NCBI RefSeq assembly: GCF_015840915.1
Contig: NZ_CP060398.1
Coordinates: 3,410,001-3,474,000 of the forward strand
DNA length: 64,000 nt
Source of the DNA: Synechococcus sp. CBW1002
Lineage (GTDB): Bacteria; Cyanobacteriota; Cyanobacteriia; PCC-6307; Cyanobiaceae
Reading direction: 5' to 3'
The notes below the pieces were generated by a model, which was not told where the DNA came from, made no database searches, and worked only from the letters and a program-made list of their open reading frames with translations. Both the position numbers and the translations under genes were made by a program. Positions 37,185 through 43,976 of this stretch are shown piece by piece. Every line of letters starts with the position of its first letter. Positions within the stretch are counted from its first letter, which is position 1.

Positions 37185-38294
37185 TCAGCGCACCGCCGGC
37201 TGGAAGCGCTCGCTGCGGATGGGCGCCATCAGGAACAGTTTCGCCATCTCCAGGCCGTTGGCCGCCCAGAAGGGAAGCTTGCGCAGGGCTCTGATCGGAG
37301 CGGGAGCCTCGGAGCTGTCGGCAGCGGCGAGGGCCGCGTTGTTCTGGACGAGGCGCTCAAGGCGCTCGTAGAACTTGGGGTTCTCCACATCCAGCACCAC
37401 GGGGAAGACGCGGGCGGAGGTCTCGTTGGTTTTGGCGATCACGTACTTGTCGTAATCGCGGGCATCGAGCCCCAGGGCTTCATAGAACTCCTTGCGGGCC
37501 ACGTCGCGCACATACATCGTGGCGAACACGGCCAACAGGAAGAAGCGGCACCAGAGGCGGGCGGTGAAGCCGCGCACGGTGTCGGGCTGGGCCTTCATCA
37601 GGGCATCAAAGAAATCGCCATGGCGGTTCTCGTCCTGACACCAGTTTTCGAAGAAGTTGAAGATCGGGAAGATCTTGCTTTCCGGGTGCTGCTCAAGGTG
37701 CCGGTAGATAGCGATATAACGCCAGTAGCCGATCTTCTCGGAGAGATAGGTGGCGTAGAAGATAAACTTCGGCTTGAAGAATGTGTAGGCCTTGTTGGCG
37801 GTGAGGAAGCCAAGATCCAGCTGCAGCCCGAAATCACTCATCGACTTGTTGAGGAAGCCGGCATGCCGGGCCTCATCGCGGGCCATATGGGCGAAACACT
37901 CCGCCAGCAGCGGATTCTTCTCCTTGATCCGACGGCTGAGTTCCTTGTAGAGCAGGAAGCCCGAGAATTCGGAGGTGCAGCTCTGCTCAAGGAACTCCAC
38001 GAACACCTTGCGGGTTTCAGGGTCGAGCTTGTCGGCCGCGCCCTCAAACTCCTCGTTCCGCACGAAGTGGTGACGGTTGTAGTCCTTGCGGAATTCCTCG
38101 CAGATCGCCTCCAGCTCCACCTCGTTGGGCCGCAGATCCATCGCCGCCATGGCGTCGAAATCCGTGGTGTAGAAGCGCGGCGTCAGGATCGTGTCCTTCA
38201 CCGGATCCTTGAACGCCGGCGCATCCGCGGTGCCGATGGCGGCATCGGGGATCGCGGCTGCGGCTGGGGCGGTCGTGGCAGCGGGTGGCACCAT
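37185..38294 (-). CDS. acsF: Mg-protoporphyrin IX monomethyl ester oxidative cyclase
   Basis: AcsF is the di-iron oxygenase that forms the isocyclic ring of chlorophyll. Landmarks are [64 protein letters not shown] (ExxH iron ligands), [20 protein letters not shown] (second ExxH) and [20 protein letters not shown]. The start chosen is ATG 38294 ([10 protein letters not shown]), the usual style in picocyanobacteria, giving 369 residues; in-frame ATGs at 38309 and 38324 are possible. The gene marks the organism as an oxygenic phototroph. Confidence 0.95.
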
Positions 38295-38387
38295 CGCGCA
38301 GGTCGGCATCGAGCGTGGCCCCATCGTAGTGGGGGCAACTCCGCTGCCGACTGGATGTGACAGTGCGTCTCGATCTGGAGGCAGTGA

Positions 38388-38864
38388 TCAGTTCGGGCCG
38401 AGCCACTTCTGGCCATTCAGCCGCTGCACCAGGCGAGAAACCAGGAGAGCCAGCGTGATCTTGCGCTCGTCGATCAGAAACGACTCCAGCAGGCTGGGTT
38501 CACTGCCCGACTCGGCCACCGCCACGGTCTTGGCGCTGGAGATGTCCGGCTGGGTGAAGCAGAGCCAGAAGCGGCGATCCCCCGGCAGGCTGCCCTGCAC
38601 CATCCAACAGGGACTGCCCACCACCGGCATCGGGCCCTCGCAGAAGCGAAGGTCGGGAGTTGGGCCGCCATAGGCCTCGATCTCCTTGGCCAGGGCCGGC
38701 AGCAGCAGGTCCGGCACGAAGCTGGCGAAGGGCTGGTCTTCCGGGGCCGGTGGCTTGGCCTTGGGCTTCGCCGCAGCAGCGGCAGCAGCAGGAGCAGCGG
38801 CGGCTGGGCTGGCAGGAGCCGGGCTGGCGGCAGGCTGAGGGGCGGGATTGGCGGAATCGCTCAC
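38388..38864 (-). CDS. DUF2996 family protein
   Basis: The 158-residue protein has an Ala/Pro-rich N-terminal 40 residues and a conserved cyanobacterial domain: PPAPEDQPFASFVPDLLLPA, then CWMVQGSLPGDRRFWLCFTQ and LLESFLIDERKITLALLVSR ending LVQRLNGQKWLGPN. The ending (QRLNGQKWL) is characteristic of DUF2996. No signal peptide or membrane segment is seen. It lies 93 bp upstream of acsF on the same strand, but the function is unknown. Confidence 0.8.
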   Translation of the reverse strand: MSDSANPAPQPAASPAPASPAAAAPAAAAAAAKPKAKPPAPEDQPFASFVPDLLLPALAKEIEAYGGPTPDLRFCEGPMPVVGSPCWMVQGSLPGDRRFWLCFTQPDISSAKTVAVAESGSEPSLLESFLIDERKITLALLVSRLVQRLNGQKWLGPN

Positions 38865-38926: not shown

Positions 38927-39511
38927 TCACCAGTCTTCGCCGGGCGGCGGGGTTCCCCAGTCTCCAAGGTCTGCGCTGGACCCATCCGAGGATGCGGCGC
39001 CCGCGGACCTGGAGGCAGCGGCCCTCGGCTCAGCTGTCCACGCGGCACGGGCCGCTGTTGTCGTGGTCGCCTGGGCCGTTGCCGATCCCTGCCGCACCAC
39101 CCGATAGGGAACACTCACAGTCGGCGGTGGTTCGCCGGGGGAGCGGCCCGGCCCGGCAGTGCCGGGAGGGGGGGCGTCCCAGGGTTCCTGGCGACCAGCC
39201 CCCTCCGACCAGGACTCCGAACCGGCCTCGGCACCCGTGCGGGAGCGACGCCTTGCTGCAAACGGCGGCGACTCCGCCGCAGTGGGGCCTGATGATCCCC
39301 CCCGCAGGGCCAGGGCCGTGGCGGTGGCGCTGAGGGCCGCTCCGGCAAGGCCGGCGGTGGCCAGCCACAGCCCGCTGGGCAGCGGCGGGCTGACCCAGAG
39401 CAGCAGCCGCAGCCGCAAGGGCGGACGGGGATTGAGGGCAGCCACCACGAGCACCGCCAGAAGGGGCGCCAGCAAGGGCAGCAACAGCAGGCGACGCAGA
39501 AGCGGAGTCAC
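38927..39511 (-). CDS. membrane protein with two N-terminal helices, hypothetical
   Basis: The 194-residue protein starts with two hydrophobic segments (LLLLPLLAPLLAVLVVAALN at about 8-27 and WLATAGLAGAALSATATALA at about 49-68). A long Ser/Gly/Pro/Arg-rich tail follows, containing a short conserved-looking stretch SPGEPPPTVSVPYRVVRQGS and ending in acidic/aromatic residues (LGDWGTPPPGEDW). Similar short two-helix proteins with the PTVSVPxRV patch occur in picocyanobacteria. The function is unknown; the patch could be a docking motif for a thylakoid partner. Confidence 0.6.
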   Translation of the reverse strand: MTPLLRRLLLLPLLAPLLAVLVVAALNPRPPLRLRLLLWVSPPLPSGLWLATAGLAGAALSATATALALRGGSSGPTAAESPPFAARRRSRTGAEAGSESWSEGAGRQEPWDAPPPGTAGPGRSPGEPPPTVSVPYRVVRQGSATAQATTTTAARAAWTAEPRAAASRSAGAASSDGSSADLGDWGTPPPGEDW

Positions 39512-39568: not shown

Positions 39569-40186
39569 TCAACGCAGCGCCGGCCGGCCCTGCCAGCGGT
39601 TGAGCGGGCCCAGGTCGTAACCCAGCACGTCGAAGACGCGGATCACCAGAAAATCCACCATGTCGTCGAGGCTGCGGGGCTGCTGATACCAGGCGGGAAC
39701 GGGCGGCGCGATCCGAGCGCCGGCCTCGGCCAGGGCCGTGAGATTGCGCAGATGCACCAGGCTCCAGGGAGTTTCCCGCGGGGCAATCACCAGCGGTCTG
39801 CCCTCCTTGAGGTGAACATCGGCGGCACGCTCCACCAGATCGAGGGCCACGCCCGAGGCAATCCGCCCCACCGTGCCCATGCTCGCCGGCAGGATGACCA
39901 TGCCGCGGGTGCGGTAGCTGCCACTGGCAATCGCCGCCCCCTGGTCATTCCAGCGGTGGCAGCGGAGCTGGCCGCCGTTGCAACCGGTGCGCTCTCGCCA
40001 GAACCGCTCCTGAAGGTCGGGTTCGGATGGAACCCGCAGGCCCAGTTCCGCCTGCCAGACCCCGATGGCGCCACGGCTGGTGACCATCTCCACGGTTTCT
40101 CCGGCCTGCAGCAACAGCTGCAGGGCCCGTTCAGCCAGGGGCTGAGCGGAGGCCCCGGACACAGCTAGAACCACCGGCAGGGTCAC
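39569..40186 (-). CDS. ubiX: flavin prenyltransferase (UbiX family)
   Basis: UbiX makes prenylated FMN, the cofactor of UbiD decarboxylases. The protein (205 residues from GTG 40186) begins LPVVLAVSGASAQPLAERAL with the SGAS phosphate loop, then SGSYRTRGMVILPASMGTVG, LKEGRPLVIAPRETPWSLVH, LRNLTALAEAGARIAPPVPA with the expected PxxPAWY, and VDFLVIRVFDVLG at the end. The GTG lies 4 bp after the stop codon of the RNB-family gene, so the two genes are likely coupled. Confidence 0.92.
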   Translation of the reverse strand: MTLPVVLAVSGASAQPLAERALQLLLQAGETVEMVTSRGAIGVWQAELGLRVPSEPDLQERFWRERTGCNGGQLRCHRWNDQGAAIASGSYRTRGMVILPASMGTVGRIASGVALDLVERAADVHLKEGRPLVIAPRETPWSLVHLRNLTALAEAGARIAPPVPAWYQQPRSLDDMVDFLVIRVFDVLGYDLGPLNRWQGRPALR

Positions 40187-40190
40187 GCGC

Positions 40191-42584
40191 TCAGTCCTGG
40201 CTGAGGTCGTCGTCGCTGGAGGATTCGTCCTCGTCAGCACCGAACTGGGAAGTCCCGTCAGCAGAGGCGGCGAAGCCAGGGCTGTCGAAGGAGGAGGCAC
40301 CCAGAGCATCAGGCCCGGAGCTACTGGTCATCTCGCTGCTGTCTGTCAGGTCATCGCCTTCGGGCAGGAGCACCACCAGGTCGATCTGATGGCGCAGGGC
40401 ATCCACCTTCTGGATCTCCACCTCCACGGCATCGCCCAACATGTAGGTGCGGCGGTTCTTACGCCCCACCAATCGGTTCTGGCGGGCCCGGTACTCGTAC
40501 CAGTCGTCCTTGAGGGAGCTGACGTGCACGAGACCTTCCACCTGGGAGGGCGGCACTTCCACGAAGAACCCGTAGCTCTGCACGCCACTGATCACCCCCG
40601 GCATCACCTGACCCACCAGCGGCTCGGCCTGCCGGGCCTGGGCCATGGCGAGGGCATCGCTCTGTACCTCCTGCAGGAAGCGAGCCCGGCCCTGAAGCCT
40701 CTGGGCCAGGCCGTGGGCGATCGCCTCCTGATAAGGAGTCAGCTGGCTGGGAGTGAGCAACGACCAGTCGATCGTGGCGGAACGGCAGGCATCACTGGCC
40801 AGATCGACGGTCACCTTGTGACGGACCGTGGGGCGATCCTTGCCATCAACCAGCAGGCTGGTGAGCAGCTGCTGGTTCCAGAGGTCGGCGTAGTGCAGAC
40901 CGGGGCAACACCAGGGGGCCACCGCCACCTCCTCGCCTGCCACCGCATTGGGACCCGGCACCTCGCTGATCTGAACAGGCTCCAGCGTGTCGCGCAACTG
41001 CTGCTGCAACACCCGGCTGCGGTCGGTGGCGGCGAAGGCGGCGGCCAGCTCGGCGGCGCTGGCATTGCCTTCAGCCGAGAGTTCCAGGGGGATTTCGAGG
41101 GCCAGGGCAGCCTTGGCCACCTCGTTCAGTTCGCTCGCTTCGGCGGCTGGATTGATGGCATACAGGGCCGGCAGGTTCAGGGCGGCCAGGTGCCCCCCCA
41201 GAGCACGATGGGCCAGCAACACGGCTTCCCGCAGCAGGGCCACGGGATGCTGCAGCGGCAGGTCCACCATCCAGCCCTGGCTGGCGCCATCGGGGCCAGG
41301 GGTGAGCAGATCGCCAAGGCCGGGGATCGCAGGCATCGGCAGGGCCAGATCGATCGAGCCCCCCGCCAAACGGCGCTGGCGCAACAGCTCAGCCACACCA
41401 ATCAGCTGTTCGATCAGCGGGATGTGATCTTTGAGCGCCTTGAGGCCGGCCGGCACCGTGCGGGCCTTGGGTTTGCGCTCCGCCAGGGCCGTGAGGGCGG
41501 CCAGGTCGACCCGTGCCGTGGGGCGGATTATGCTCCGGCTGAAACGGTAATGCTCCAGCGCGCCGTCGGGGGAAAGATCAAGGGCCACCGAGAGGGCCGA
41601 CTCACTGCGGCCGGGCTGGAACGCACTCGCCTTGGCCAGGGCAGGGGTGAGCAGGGGCAGCCAGGAGGGACCGACGCAGAAGGCCTCGGCCTGCTCCCGC
41701 AGCCACAGATCCAGCGAGGAGCCAAGGGCCAGGCGTTCCGCCACGCAGGGGGCATGGACCCACAGTCGCCAGCCGGCGCCGTCTTCGCGGGGTTCAAGAG
41801 CCAGCGCCGGCAGCCCCGGGGCCTCGTTGCTCCAGGCTTCCAGCAGAAGGGTGGTCTGCGCGGTGAGATCGATCCGATCCTTGGGAGCCGGGGTCCGGAG
41901 GGTGGCGCGCGGTGCGGCAGGCCGCTCCCGCAAGCCATGTTTGGTGAGCAGCAGGTCGAGGTCGGCCTCCACGCCACCGTGGATGGGCAGCTGGCGCTCC
42001 ACGTGGCCCTGGGGAGCGAACTGGCCCACCGGGTAACGGTCCACCATGACCTCGACCACCGAAGACTGACTGGGGTCGAGGTGAACGGCATCAGCACTGG
42101 GCAGCTCCAGGCTGGTGAGCAGCCGATCGTCAAGCGGCACGGCCAACAGCCGATCGTTCTGCTCCTCCACCTGGGCCAGGAGGCTGCTGGTGGCCCGTTC
42201 CAGAATGCATTGCACGCCGCCTTCGGGTGAACGGCGGCGGCCACCCTCGCGGGTGATGCGCACCAGCACCCGATCGCCGTTCCAGGCGTGGTTGAGCTGG
42301 TGGTCACGGATGTAGATGTCTTCGCCGCCGTCATCCCGCAGGGCAAAGCAGAAGCCCTTGCTCGAGCAGCGCAGCCTCGCCTCGATCAGGGTGTCATCCT
42401 GGCGCCGCTGCAGACCGGCCTCGCTCTCCTCCAGCAGACCCAGACGCACCAGACCATCGAGGCCGATGCGCAGGTGCTGCTGCTCAGGCTCTCCGGAGAG
42501 ACCGAGGGCCTTCTCCAGTTGTGCCACGGGCACGGTGCTGTCGGGTGTGAGCTGGTCGAGCAGGTCGGCGACCGTGAACTTCAT
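40191..42584 (-). CDS. RNase II/R-like protein with degenerate RNB domain and C-terminal S1 domain
   Basis: The protein (797 residues from ATG 42584, MKFTVADLLDQL) has an RNase R-like N-terminus (SKGFCFALRDDGGEDIYIRD cold-shock-like stretch), an RNB-like centre (RIDLTAQTTLLLEAWS, WRLWVHAPCVAERLALGSSL, LPLLTPALAKASAFQPGRSE, HYRFSRSIIRPTARVDL) and a C-terminal S1 domain (VMPGVISGVQSYGFFVEVPP, VEGLVHVSSLKDDWYEY). The catalytic aspartate cluster (consensus DGEDARDFDDA) is replaced by sequence without those Asp residues, and the TSPIRRYAD motif reads CPGLHYAD. Exonuclease activity is therefore doubtful. An RNA-binding role is inferred. Confidence 0.85.
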   Translation of the reverse strand: MKFTVADLLDQLTPDSTVPVAQLEKALGLSGEPEQQHLRIGLDGLVRLGLLEESEAGLQRRQDDTLIEARLRCSSKGFCFALRDDGGEDIYIRDHQLNHAWNGDRVLVRITREGGRRRSPEGGVQCILERATSSLLAQVEEQNDRLLAVPLDDRLLTSLELPSADAVHLDPSQSSVVEVMVDRYPVGQFAPQGHVERQLPIHGGVEADLDLLLTKHGLRERPAAPRATLRTPAPKDRIDLTAQTTLLLEAWSNEAPGLPALALEPREDGAGWRLWVHAPCVAERLALGSSLDLWLREQAEAFCVGPSWLPLLTPALAKASAFQPGRSESALSVALDLSPDGALEHYRFSRSIIRPTARVDLAALTALAERKPKARTVPAGLKALKDHIPLIEQLIGVAELLRQRRLAGGSIDLALPMPAIPGLGDLLTPGPDGASQGWMVDLPLQHPVALLREAVLLAHRALGGHLAALNLPALYAINPAAEASELNEVAKAALALEIPLELSAEGNASAAELAAAFAATDRSRVLQQQLRDTLEPVQISEVPGPNAVAGEEVAVAPWCCPGLHYADLWNQQLLTSLLVDGKDRPTVRHKVTVDLASDACRSATIDWSLLTPSQLTPYQEAIAHGLAQRLQGRARFLQEVQSDALAMAQARQAEPLVGQVMPGVISGVQSYGFFVEVPPSQVEGLVHVSSLKDDWYEYRARQNRLVGRKNRRTYMLGDAVEVEIQKVDALRHQIDLVVLLPEGDDLTDSSEMTSSSGPDALGASSFDSPGFAASADGTSQFGADEDESSSDDDLSQD

Positions 42585-42830: not shown

Positions 42831-43199
42831 TCAGGCCGGGGGTTCCTGAGCGCTGGACACCACCCCGTCGACCCTCACCAGATCGTCACCGGCCAGTGCT
42901 TCGCCACCGGCCAGGTCGTCCTCGCTGACCCTGGAGCGCTGAATCAGGCGCAGGCCGATCACCAGAAAGCCAAGGGAGGCCACCAGTTGCAGCAGATCGG
43001 TGGGCACCACACTGGACAGGGAGCCACCGGCAGCCGCCCCAAGCAGGCTGGCCAGCACCAGGGCCACGGAACTGCCGGCGAACACCGCCGTGGGGCGGCT
43101 CGAGGTGCCGCTGATCGTGACGATGGCGAGCTGGGTCTTGTCGCCCAGTTCCGCCAGAAACACCGTGGCGAAGGTTGAAGCCAGGAGGGCGAGCGGCAT
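42831..43199 (-). CDS. UPF0016/GDT1 half-size transporter (second of pair)
   Basis: The 122-residue membrane protein carries a single copy of the UPF0016 motif (TFATVFLAELGDKTQLAIVT, consensus ExGDKT) within three predicted helices. Half-size members work as heteromeric or homo-oligomeric cation exporters; in cyanobacteria the family is linked to manganese export. It lies 55 bp downstream of a similar half-size gene, which fits a two-component exchanger. The C-terminal tail is acidic. Confidence 0.88.
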   Translation of the reverse strand: MPLALLASTFATVFLAELGDKTQLAIVTISGTSSRPTAVFAGSSVALVLASLLGAAAGGSLSSVVPTDLLQLVASLGFLVIGLRLIQRSRVSEDDLAGGEALAGDDLVRVDGVVSSAQEPPA

Positions 43200-43254
43200 G
43201 GCAAGGGCGGGAGTTCGAAGGAAGCCACAGGGTTAGACCTCGGTGCGAGGCCCT

Positions 43255-43620
43255 TCAGGGCTGGATCTGGGGGAGATGCAGCAGGTCAGGGTGCAGCGAA
43301 GACAGGTGAAGCACGGCCTGGCGACCGAGCCAGAGCCCCAGAGCAACCATCACCAGCCCGGCCAGTCGCTCGAGCTGATGGGCCGGCATGACACTGGCCA
43401 GCCAGCGGCCCAGCACCACCCCCACCAGGCTGGAGCTGATCAGGGCCAGGGAGGCCCCGATGAACACCACCACCGGCTGACCGGACTGCGCCGACAGCAG
43501 AAGGGCGGCCAGCTGGGTCTTGTCCCCCAGCTCCGCCAGAAACACGGTGGTGGCTGTGGTGAGGAAGGCAGCTCCCCAGCTGCCGGCGTGGCTGTTGTCG
43601 CTGCCGGAGGTGCTGCTCAT
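43255..43620 (-). CDS. UPF0016/GDT1 half-size transporter (first of pair)
   Basis: This 121-residue protein (ATG 43620) also has a single ExGDKT motif (ATTVFLAELGDKTQLAALLL) and three helices ending in ERLAGLVMVALGLWLGRQAV. Its ATG overlaps the stop codon of the YkgJ-like gene (ATGA), so all three genes are probably co-translated. The split arrangement suggests that two halves form one transporter; Mn2+ (or Ca2+) as substrate comes from the family, not from this sequence. Confidence 0.88.
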   Translation of the reverse strand: MSSTSGSDNSHAGSWGAAFLTTATTVFLAELGDKTQLAALLLSAQSGQPVVVFIGASLALISSSLVGVVLGRWLASVMPAHQLERLAGLVMVALGLWLGRQAVLHLSSLHPDLLHLPQIQP

Positions 43621-43976
43621 GGCCGTTGGCGAATGGCGCGCCGGAATCGCCGCATCACCCTGCCACGGCCGCCGTATTCGCTGCGGATCTGCTGTTTGCA
43701 ACAGTCGATCGCCAGGGCATCCGCCTCACCGGCCTCGGCGCCGAACAGGGCCATGAGGTTCTCAACCCTGCAGAAATCAGGCCGATCCTCGTAGATCCGG
43801 CATCGACGGGCACCGGTGTCGTAGTGGATGCACCAGCCGTCTTCGCCCACCATCGCGAGGTACGTGCGGCGCTGCTCGTCGCTGAGCGCCGCGATGGCGT
43901 CCTCGCGCAGGCTGGGATCGAGCCGGCAGCAGGCGCCGCAGCAGGCGATGCACTGCCAGCGTTCCGGCTTACTCAT
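43617..43976 (-). CDS. YkgJ-family cysteine-cluster protein
   Basis: The 119-residue protein (ATG 43976) has the cysteine pattern of the YkgJ zinc/iron-chelating domain: CIACCGACCRLDP, WCIHYDTGARRCRIYEDRPD, FCRVENL and IDCCKQQI. It probably binds a metal cluster. It is the first gene of a coupled set with the two UPF0016 half transporters, hinting at metal homeostasis, which is an inference. It is divergent from psb30. Confidence 0.85.
   Translation of the reverse strand: MSKPERWQCIACCGACCRLDPSLREDAIAALSDEQRRTYLAMVGEDGWCIHYDTGARRCRIYEDRPDFCRVENLMALFGAEAGEADALAIDCCKQQIRSEYGGRGRVMRRFRRAIRQRP

Follow-up and report, generated by a model that had tools for sequence, protein, structure and literature searches.

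An RNase R-like gene of Synechococcus sp. CBW1002 is predicted to encode a non-catalytic, picocyanobacterial form of Zam

The window, by which we mean the whole 64,000-nucleotide stretch of the Synechococcus sp. CBW1002 contig analyzed here, contains a gene for an RNB-family protein that is almost certainly zam in its picocyanobacterial form, judging from its sequence features and its place in a tree. All six of the catalytic residues compared with RNase II have been replaced, and the window form of Zam is very unlikely to act as an exonuclease. As read from alignments and substitution rates, no other group of the family has a site as strongly altered as the picocyanobacterial one, yet it is newly conserved and under purifying selection. 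In 2022 Thomas et al. described Zam as an RNB protein present throughout the cyanobacteria, whose active site is degenerate and whose OB domains are conserved (PMC9145284). The observation made in the sequence-only reading of this DNA is correct, but the protein is not new; what is distinctive is the picocyanobacterial form.

The gene and its identity

The open reading frame runs from an ATG at 42584 to a TGA at 40191, with an in-frame GTG also present 14 codons upstream of the ATG (Table 1). A promoter and terminator scan gave no signal above chance. The Pfam matches of the 797-residue product are OB_RNB, CSD2, RNB (132 bits) and S1, every one above its cut-off, and the top matches in a PDB sequence search are RNase R chains. 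An alignment with E. coli RNase R covers almost all of the protein, with 23% identity. The RNase R-like layout and the retention of cold-shock-like and S1 domains, both proposed from the letters, are thus borne out, and CSD1 and S1 are the most conserved parts of the protein. The window's genome, a single contig of 3,854,122 bases, has two RNB matches.

Zam is the acetazolamide resistance protein, encoded by sll1910 in Synechocystis PCC 6803 and A1543 in Synechococcus PCC 7002; its CSD1 carries two redox-active cysteines, C73 and C79, on which function in vivo depends, and zam mutants contain less phycocyanin and show a higher PSI:PSII ratio (PMC9145284). The acetazolamide and pigment phenotypes and the redox-active cysteines are published for PCC 6803 and PCC 7002 only. 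The window protein has the same CSD, RNB and S1 architecture, a degenerate RNB active site and both cysteines at the same numbers, where architecture and numbering were compared with the published description (PMC9145284). A tree of 84 rows, from which the catalytic columns were excluded, places 73 Zams, including the window protein, apart from 11 RNB enzymes (SH-aLRT 99) and gathers the 33 picocyanobacterial rows into one group (SH-aLRT 100); this is a quick tree in which 31 of 81 inner branches fall below 80, the E. coli and L073 branches are long, the outgroup does not lie on one side of a branch and 42 of the 84 rows have odd composition. Throughout, we take the window's family (f1) to be the picocyanobacteria and its small genomes to be Prochlorococcus-like, and families f41 and f49 are presumably Gloeobacter-like and Anthocerotibacter-like, respectively.

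Table 1. Features of the zam region in the window
Feature	Position	Strand	Basis
zam coding sequence (as assigned here), 797 aa + stop	40191..42584	-	ORF, Pfam, alignment, tree
CSD1 (about residues 67-130; limits approximate)	42195..42386	-	Pfam OB_RNB 70-125; dN/dS
CSSKGFC, C73 + C79, published Zam redox pair	42348..42368	-	invariant in 15/15 rows; redox role PMC9145284
RNB domain (residues 237-578)	40851..41876	-	Pfam RNB 132 bits
Former aspartate cluster E249-P259; D201/D207/D209/D210 to E/P/L/P	41808..41840	-	alignments
C303, RNase II Tyr253 column	41676..41678	-	Cys in 68/74 picocyanobacterial rows, 0/86 other rows
CCPGLHY (559-565), at place of TSPIRRY; Arg500 column = L563	40890..40910	-	alignments
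S1 domain (about residues 656-740)	40365..40619	-	Pfam S1 656-736; dN/dS
Acidic C-terminal tail, residues 741-797, poorly conserved	40194..40364	-	sequence; dN/dS
ubiX-like flavoprotein gene, GTG start	39569..40186	-	Pfam PF02441 123.7 bits; adjacency
Small third gene after ubiX	38927..39511	-	weak match to third gene of Nostocaceae cluster

The catalytic site and what replaced it

When the window protein is aligned with E. coli RNase II and RNase R, the columns of RNase II D201, D207, D209, D210, Tyr253 and Arg500 are occupied by E249, P256, L258, P259, C303 and L563, so that none of the four catalytic aspartates is present and both the tyrosine and the arginine have been replaced. The loss of the DxxDxDD cluster and the degeneration of the TSPIRRYAD motif, as claimed in the sequence-only reading, are confirmed by this comparison. 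A slip of the alignment is unlikely because the stretch is bracketed by residues that align well in picocyanobacterial Zams (R237 in 74/74, D239 in 69/74 and H277 in 74/74). We also looked through the whole protein for an intact acidic cluster that might have been displaced; the pattern D-x-[DE]-[DE] matches once, at residue 784 in the C-terminal tail, and nowhere else. As a positive control, all 46 Rnb rows (some being the same gene twice) read D[D/E]DDYR at the six columns. The window genome's own Rnb, its other RNB protein, is intact, reading DDDDYR and keeping TIDDADTRDIDD and TSPIRRYGD. Against the NCBIfam RNase_R equivalog model the window protein scores 178 bits, below the cut-off of 597.85. 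For RNase II, the substitution D209N alone abolishes activity (PMC3293843).

An AlphaFold2 model built from the window protein and 29 Nostocaceae Zams has a mean pLDDT of 48.7 and is too poor for use. By analogy with the RNase II site, C303, C559 and C560 may lie close to one another. On a more daring reading that we regard as doubtful, the former pocket has been rebuilt, perhaps as a cysteine-based redox or RNA-gripping site around C303. We do not claim a fixed three-cysteine site, since C559 is cysteine in 52/74 and C560 in 45/74 picocyanobacterial rows, compared with 68/74 for C303.

The state of the site across the family was compared in 160 Zams (162 matches, from which E. coli RNase R and one truncated entry, L131, were removed), of which 74 are picocyanobacterial and 86 are not; the latter were taken as best-scoring loci and are biased to high RNB scores, so that fractions among them are not phylum frequencies. 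None of the 160 keeps all four aspartates and ten keep three. The sole aspartate lost is D207 in nine of these (L005, L006, L116, L122, L125, L130, L132, L133 and L137), three of which have Phe for Tyr253, and D201 in the tenth (L123); Arg500 is kept in all ten. Nostocaceae Zams mostly read x-V-E-N at the aspartate columns and retain Tyr253 and Arg500. On the 84-row tree, the minimum number of changes is five for D209, three for D210 and seven for R500. The alignments thus indicate that erosion of the Zam site is graded, which is a new result of this analysis. According to the 2022 discussion, no Zam has the canonical site (PMC9145284). On our alignments this is still true, but some Zams are only one aspartate short.

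At the far end of this gradation, the 74 picocyanobacterial Zams have Pro for D207 in 73, Leu for D209 in 68 and Pro for D210 in 63, with no aspartate at any of the three columns in any row; the Arg500 column holds Leu in 51 rows and Arg in a single one (L194). Residues new to this lineage have become almost invariant: W308, K385, G506 and K582 in all 74, P256 and E283 in 73, W275 and R284 in 72, and W251 in 71. Median dN/dS over 35 close pairs, which share genomes and are not independent, is 0.018 for CSD1, 0.025 for S1 and 0.149 for the RNB domain, and it is 0.56 for the C-terminal tail (26 pairs). For 22 pairs with both genes, the RNB-domain value is 0.112 in Zam versus 0.132 in active Rnb, a comparison that omitted G135 and G210, the Rnb sites of which are both intact by alignment. 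In 70 of the 91 pairs from 14 genomes, the full Zam protein is better conserved than the full Rnb protein, but the RNB domain is more conserved in Zam in only 17 of the 91 (means of 0.668 and 0.745). These values are those of a maintained, altered RNB domain and not of decay.

Distribution, gene order and Alr1240

An RNB protein was found in 71/146 genomes from the phylum and 387/388 from the class. The Zam query matches 145/161 genomes of the window's family, although four of these (G187, G196, G292 and G298) match only weakly and could be cross-hits to Rnb, and 99 of the 100 family genomes with at least 90% completeness and at most 5% contamination. In the six Gloeobacter-like genomes, Zam has the cysteine pair and retains no more than one of the four aspartates. 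In a check of 20 genomes, picked mostly for a single RNB match or special interest, Zam was not found in six: four drafts (G302, G342, G520 and G521) and the two f49 genomes (G367 and G375), which are of an early-branching type, do have Rnb and include one single 4.2-Mb contig. Only a Zam fragment was seen in G501. Zam is thus very widespread, though perhaps not universal; according to the 2022 survey it was present in every genome searched (PMC9145284). The suggestion that the gene is specific to picocyanobacteria has to be rejected because Zams are found in Nostocaceae, in Gloeobacter-like genomes and in many other cyanobacterial genomes, in line with the cyanobacterium-wide distribution given in that survey.

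The CxxxxxC motif in CSD1 is present in 155 of the 160 unique Zam open reading frames, which were chosen by HMM score. One of its cysteines, though published as invariant, is lost in L141, L142, L177, L188 and L195, three of which are picocyanobacterial. As a separate observation, f13 genomes encode an extra RNB-family protein with an open frame of about 740-777 aa and a weak RNB score of 150-172 bits (L074, at G050:C1:206500-214500, with matches in G103, G113, G139 and G145).

A GTG start for ubiX is possible 4 nt after the zam stop, as read from the sequence. The third gene has no Pfam match; over 64 aa it is 33% identical to the gene in third place in the Nostocaceae cluster (E 2e-5, a single comparison). 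Where 700 bases or more of sequence lie downstream, a same-strand ubiX homologue directly follows zam in 117/153 loci (66/72 picocyanobacterial and 51/81 other); the 36 zam genes with no adjacent ubiX include all six from Gloeobacter-like genomes and four from Prochlorococcus-like ones. The zam-ubiX pair is widespread, so that the coupling to ubiX proposed from the letters is seen in the window but is not special to its lineage. Elsewhere on the same strand, two tandem genes for GDT1-family membrane proteins lie upstream of zam (42831-43701), and a DUF2996 gene and a rubrerythrin-domain gene, the latter presumably acsF, lie downstream of the zam-ubiX group (37185-38864).

Gene order also bears on a protein reported to be active. 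A review describes Alr1240 of Anabaena PCC 7120, under the name RNase II, as having exonuclease activity and binding RNase E (PMC10989914), and the RNase E binding is repeated, with the same name, in a later paper (PMC10783494); Thomas et al. name Alr1240 as Zam (PMC9145284). alr1240-alr1241-alr1242 form one transcription unit (PMC10287535), ClpP1 is alr1238 (PMC8147232) and shikimate kinase is alr1244 (PMC4005646). All four Nostocaceae zam loci (L046, L290, L292 and L294) have the order clpP, reverse gene, zam, ubiX, third gene and shikimate kinase gene, and in one of the four Pfam supports the ClpP, shikimate kinase, flavoprotein and RNB assignments; this order is not found in the three rnb loci examined. 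Placed by published gene numbers and gene order, Alr1240, for which exonuclease activity is reported, is probably a Zam. This would make for a conflict in print between a reported active exonuclease and Zams of its relatives that have lost the aspartates. The conflict is directly testable, and the Alr1240 activity deserves a re-test because D209N alone is enough to abolish the activity of RNase II.

Possible functions and comparison with known systems

Several explanations of these observations can be weighed. A decaying zam gene headed for loss would account for the missing catalytic residues and for the failure to see Zam in both f49 genomes and some drafts, but we reject this explanation on dN/dS, which is far below 1 in every domain except the tail; with new residues nearly fixed in the 74 picocyanobacterial rows and Zam retained in nearly all good-quality family genomes, it is scarcely credible. 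It is also very unlikely that Zam works with ubiX in the metabolism of quinones or prenylated flavins instead of RNA, as the adjacency of the two genes might suggest, because the pair is missing from 36 of the 153 loci and the Zam domains are of RNA-binding types. We give only a small chance to the idea that Zam retains exonuclease activity through a residual or rearranged site, the activity being real in Alr1240 and common to the window protein. The review of Alr1240 and its probable identification as a Zam by gene order argue for this idea, as do the ten Zams that keep three aspartates, Tyr or Phe, and Arg; however, all six residues are gone from the window form, the D209N result shows how little is needed to kill RNase II activity, and PCC 7002 Zam is reported as inactive (PMC9145284).

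A further alternative arises from Rnb itself. We searched 30 family genomes, mostly chosen for small size, with a short Rnb as query. The Rnb open frame is 398-453 aa in 23 of the 28 genomes with a match and 684-703 aa in the other five; G210 has a long Rnb, and the two genomes with no match (G160 and G164) are both drafts. In 12/12 single-contig genomes with the short form, a search with the N-terminal part of Rnb gives no match up to an E of 1, whereas 4/4 controls match. The Prochlorococcus-like Rnb has therefore lost this part, but its active site is intact (L312, L313, L315-L330, L332 and L335-L340), and Zam is full length in the same genomes. A full-text literature search returned no title on a shortened Prochlorococcus Rnb among the matches listed. 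The work of one enzyme might thus be split in picocyanobacteria, with Zam, its non-catalytic site conserved, serving as a platform for RNA binding and RNase E contact, and the Prochlorococcus-like Rnb being reduced to its catalytic core and reliant on Zam. We regard this as doubtful: the shortening of Rnb with a full-length Zam in the same clade speaks for it, but it is apparently one evolutionary event, so no statistical test applies, and full-length Rnb coexists with Zam in the window's genome and most others. An active RNase II reduced in this way in Prochlorococcus-like genomes is directly testable.

We lean, by a modest degree, toward Zam being a non-catalytic, redox-tuned regulator of RNA decay. 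The case for a non-catalytic regulator follows from membership in the Zam clade, the loss of six site residues, the retention of CSD1, S1, C73 and C79, and purifying selection. An RNase R-like protein would have lost exonuclease catalysis and survived as a regulator; CSD1 and S1 would bind RNA, RNase E or both, the redox state of C73 and C79 would set that binding, and RNA decay would thereby follow photosynthetic redox state. For the window Zam we put the redox and RNase E mechanism at even chances. Of the earlier proposal of a non-catalytic chaperone or regulator, the RNB fold with no catalytic site, the RNA-binding-type domains and the probable regulatory role stand, but it had missed that this is a known Zam with a redox pair. 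As to function, what has been published for Zams hints at redox control and, in the case of an Anabaena homologue, at binding of RNase E.

Some observations weigh against this regulator. The reported exonuclease activity of Alr1240 (PMC10989914) does so, as does the loss of one cysteine of the pair in five of 160 Zams. Purified PCC 7002 Zam showed neither nuclease activity nor RNA binding with Rnb substrates (given by the authors as data not shown), and the protein aggregates (PMC9145284). In addition, the regulator cannot easily be one of phycobilisomes alone. Prochlorococcus has no phycobilisomes, and Prochlorococcus-like genomes nevertheless keep Zam, which disfavors such a role. Zam is an erased-site paralogue kept by nearly all cyanobacteria examined and linked in print to redox and photosynthesis; this wide retention, together with the published link, is why Zam may couple RNA decay to light.

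Compared with known systems, the window protein is closest to the Zams of PCC 6803 and PCC 7002, with which it shares the CSD/RNB/S1 architecture, a degenerate site, the C73/C79 numbering, a second RNB gene in the genome and the Zam clade. It differs from other Zams in having the most altered site, with P/L/P at three aspartates, Cys at Tyr253 and Leu at Arg500. Alr1240 is probably alike, gene order making it the likely Zam of PCC 7120, and its relatives are about 35% identical to the window protein and share zam-ubiX; it is unlike in being a reported exonuclease and RNase E binder, and Tyr253 and Arg500 are retained in Nostocaceae Zams. E. coli RNase R (rnr) shares the near-full-length alignment and accounts for the best PDB matches, but keeps the four aspartates, the Tyr and the Arg, all of which are missing from the window form. 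Cyanobacterial Rnb (RNase II of the sll1290 type, L001 in the window's own genome) shares the RNB domain, with only about 100 residues alignable to the window protein, and unlike it has an intact site and N-terminal wH_RNase_II and HTH_RNase_II domains.
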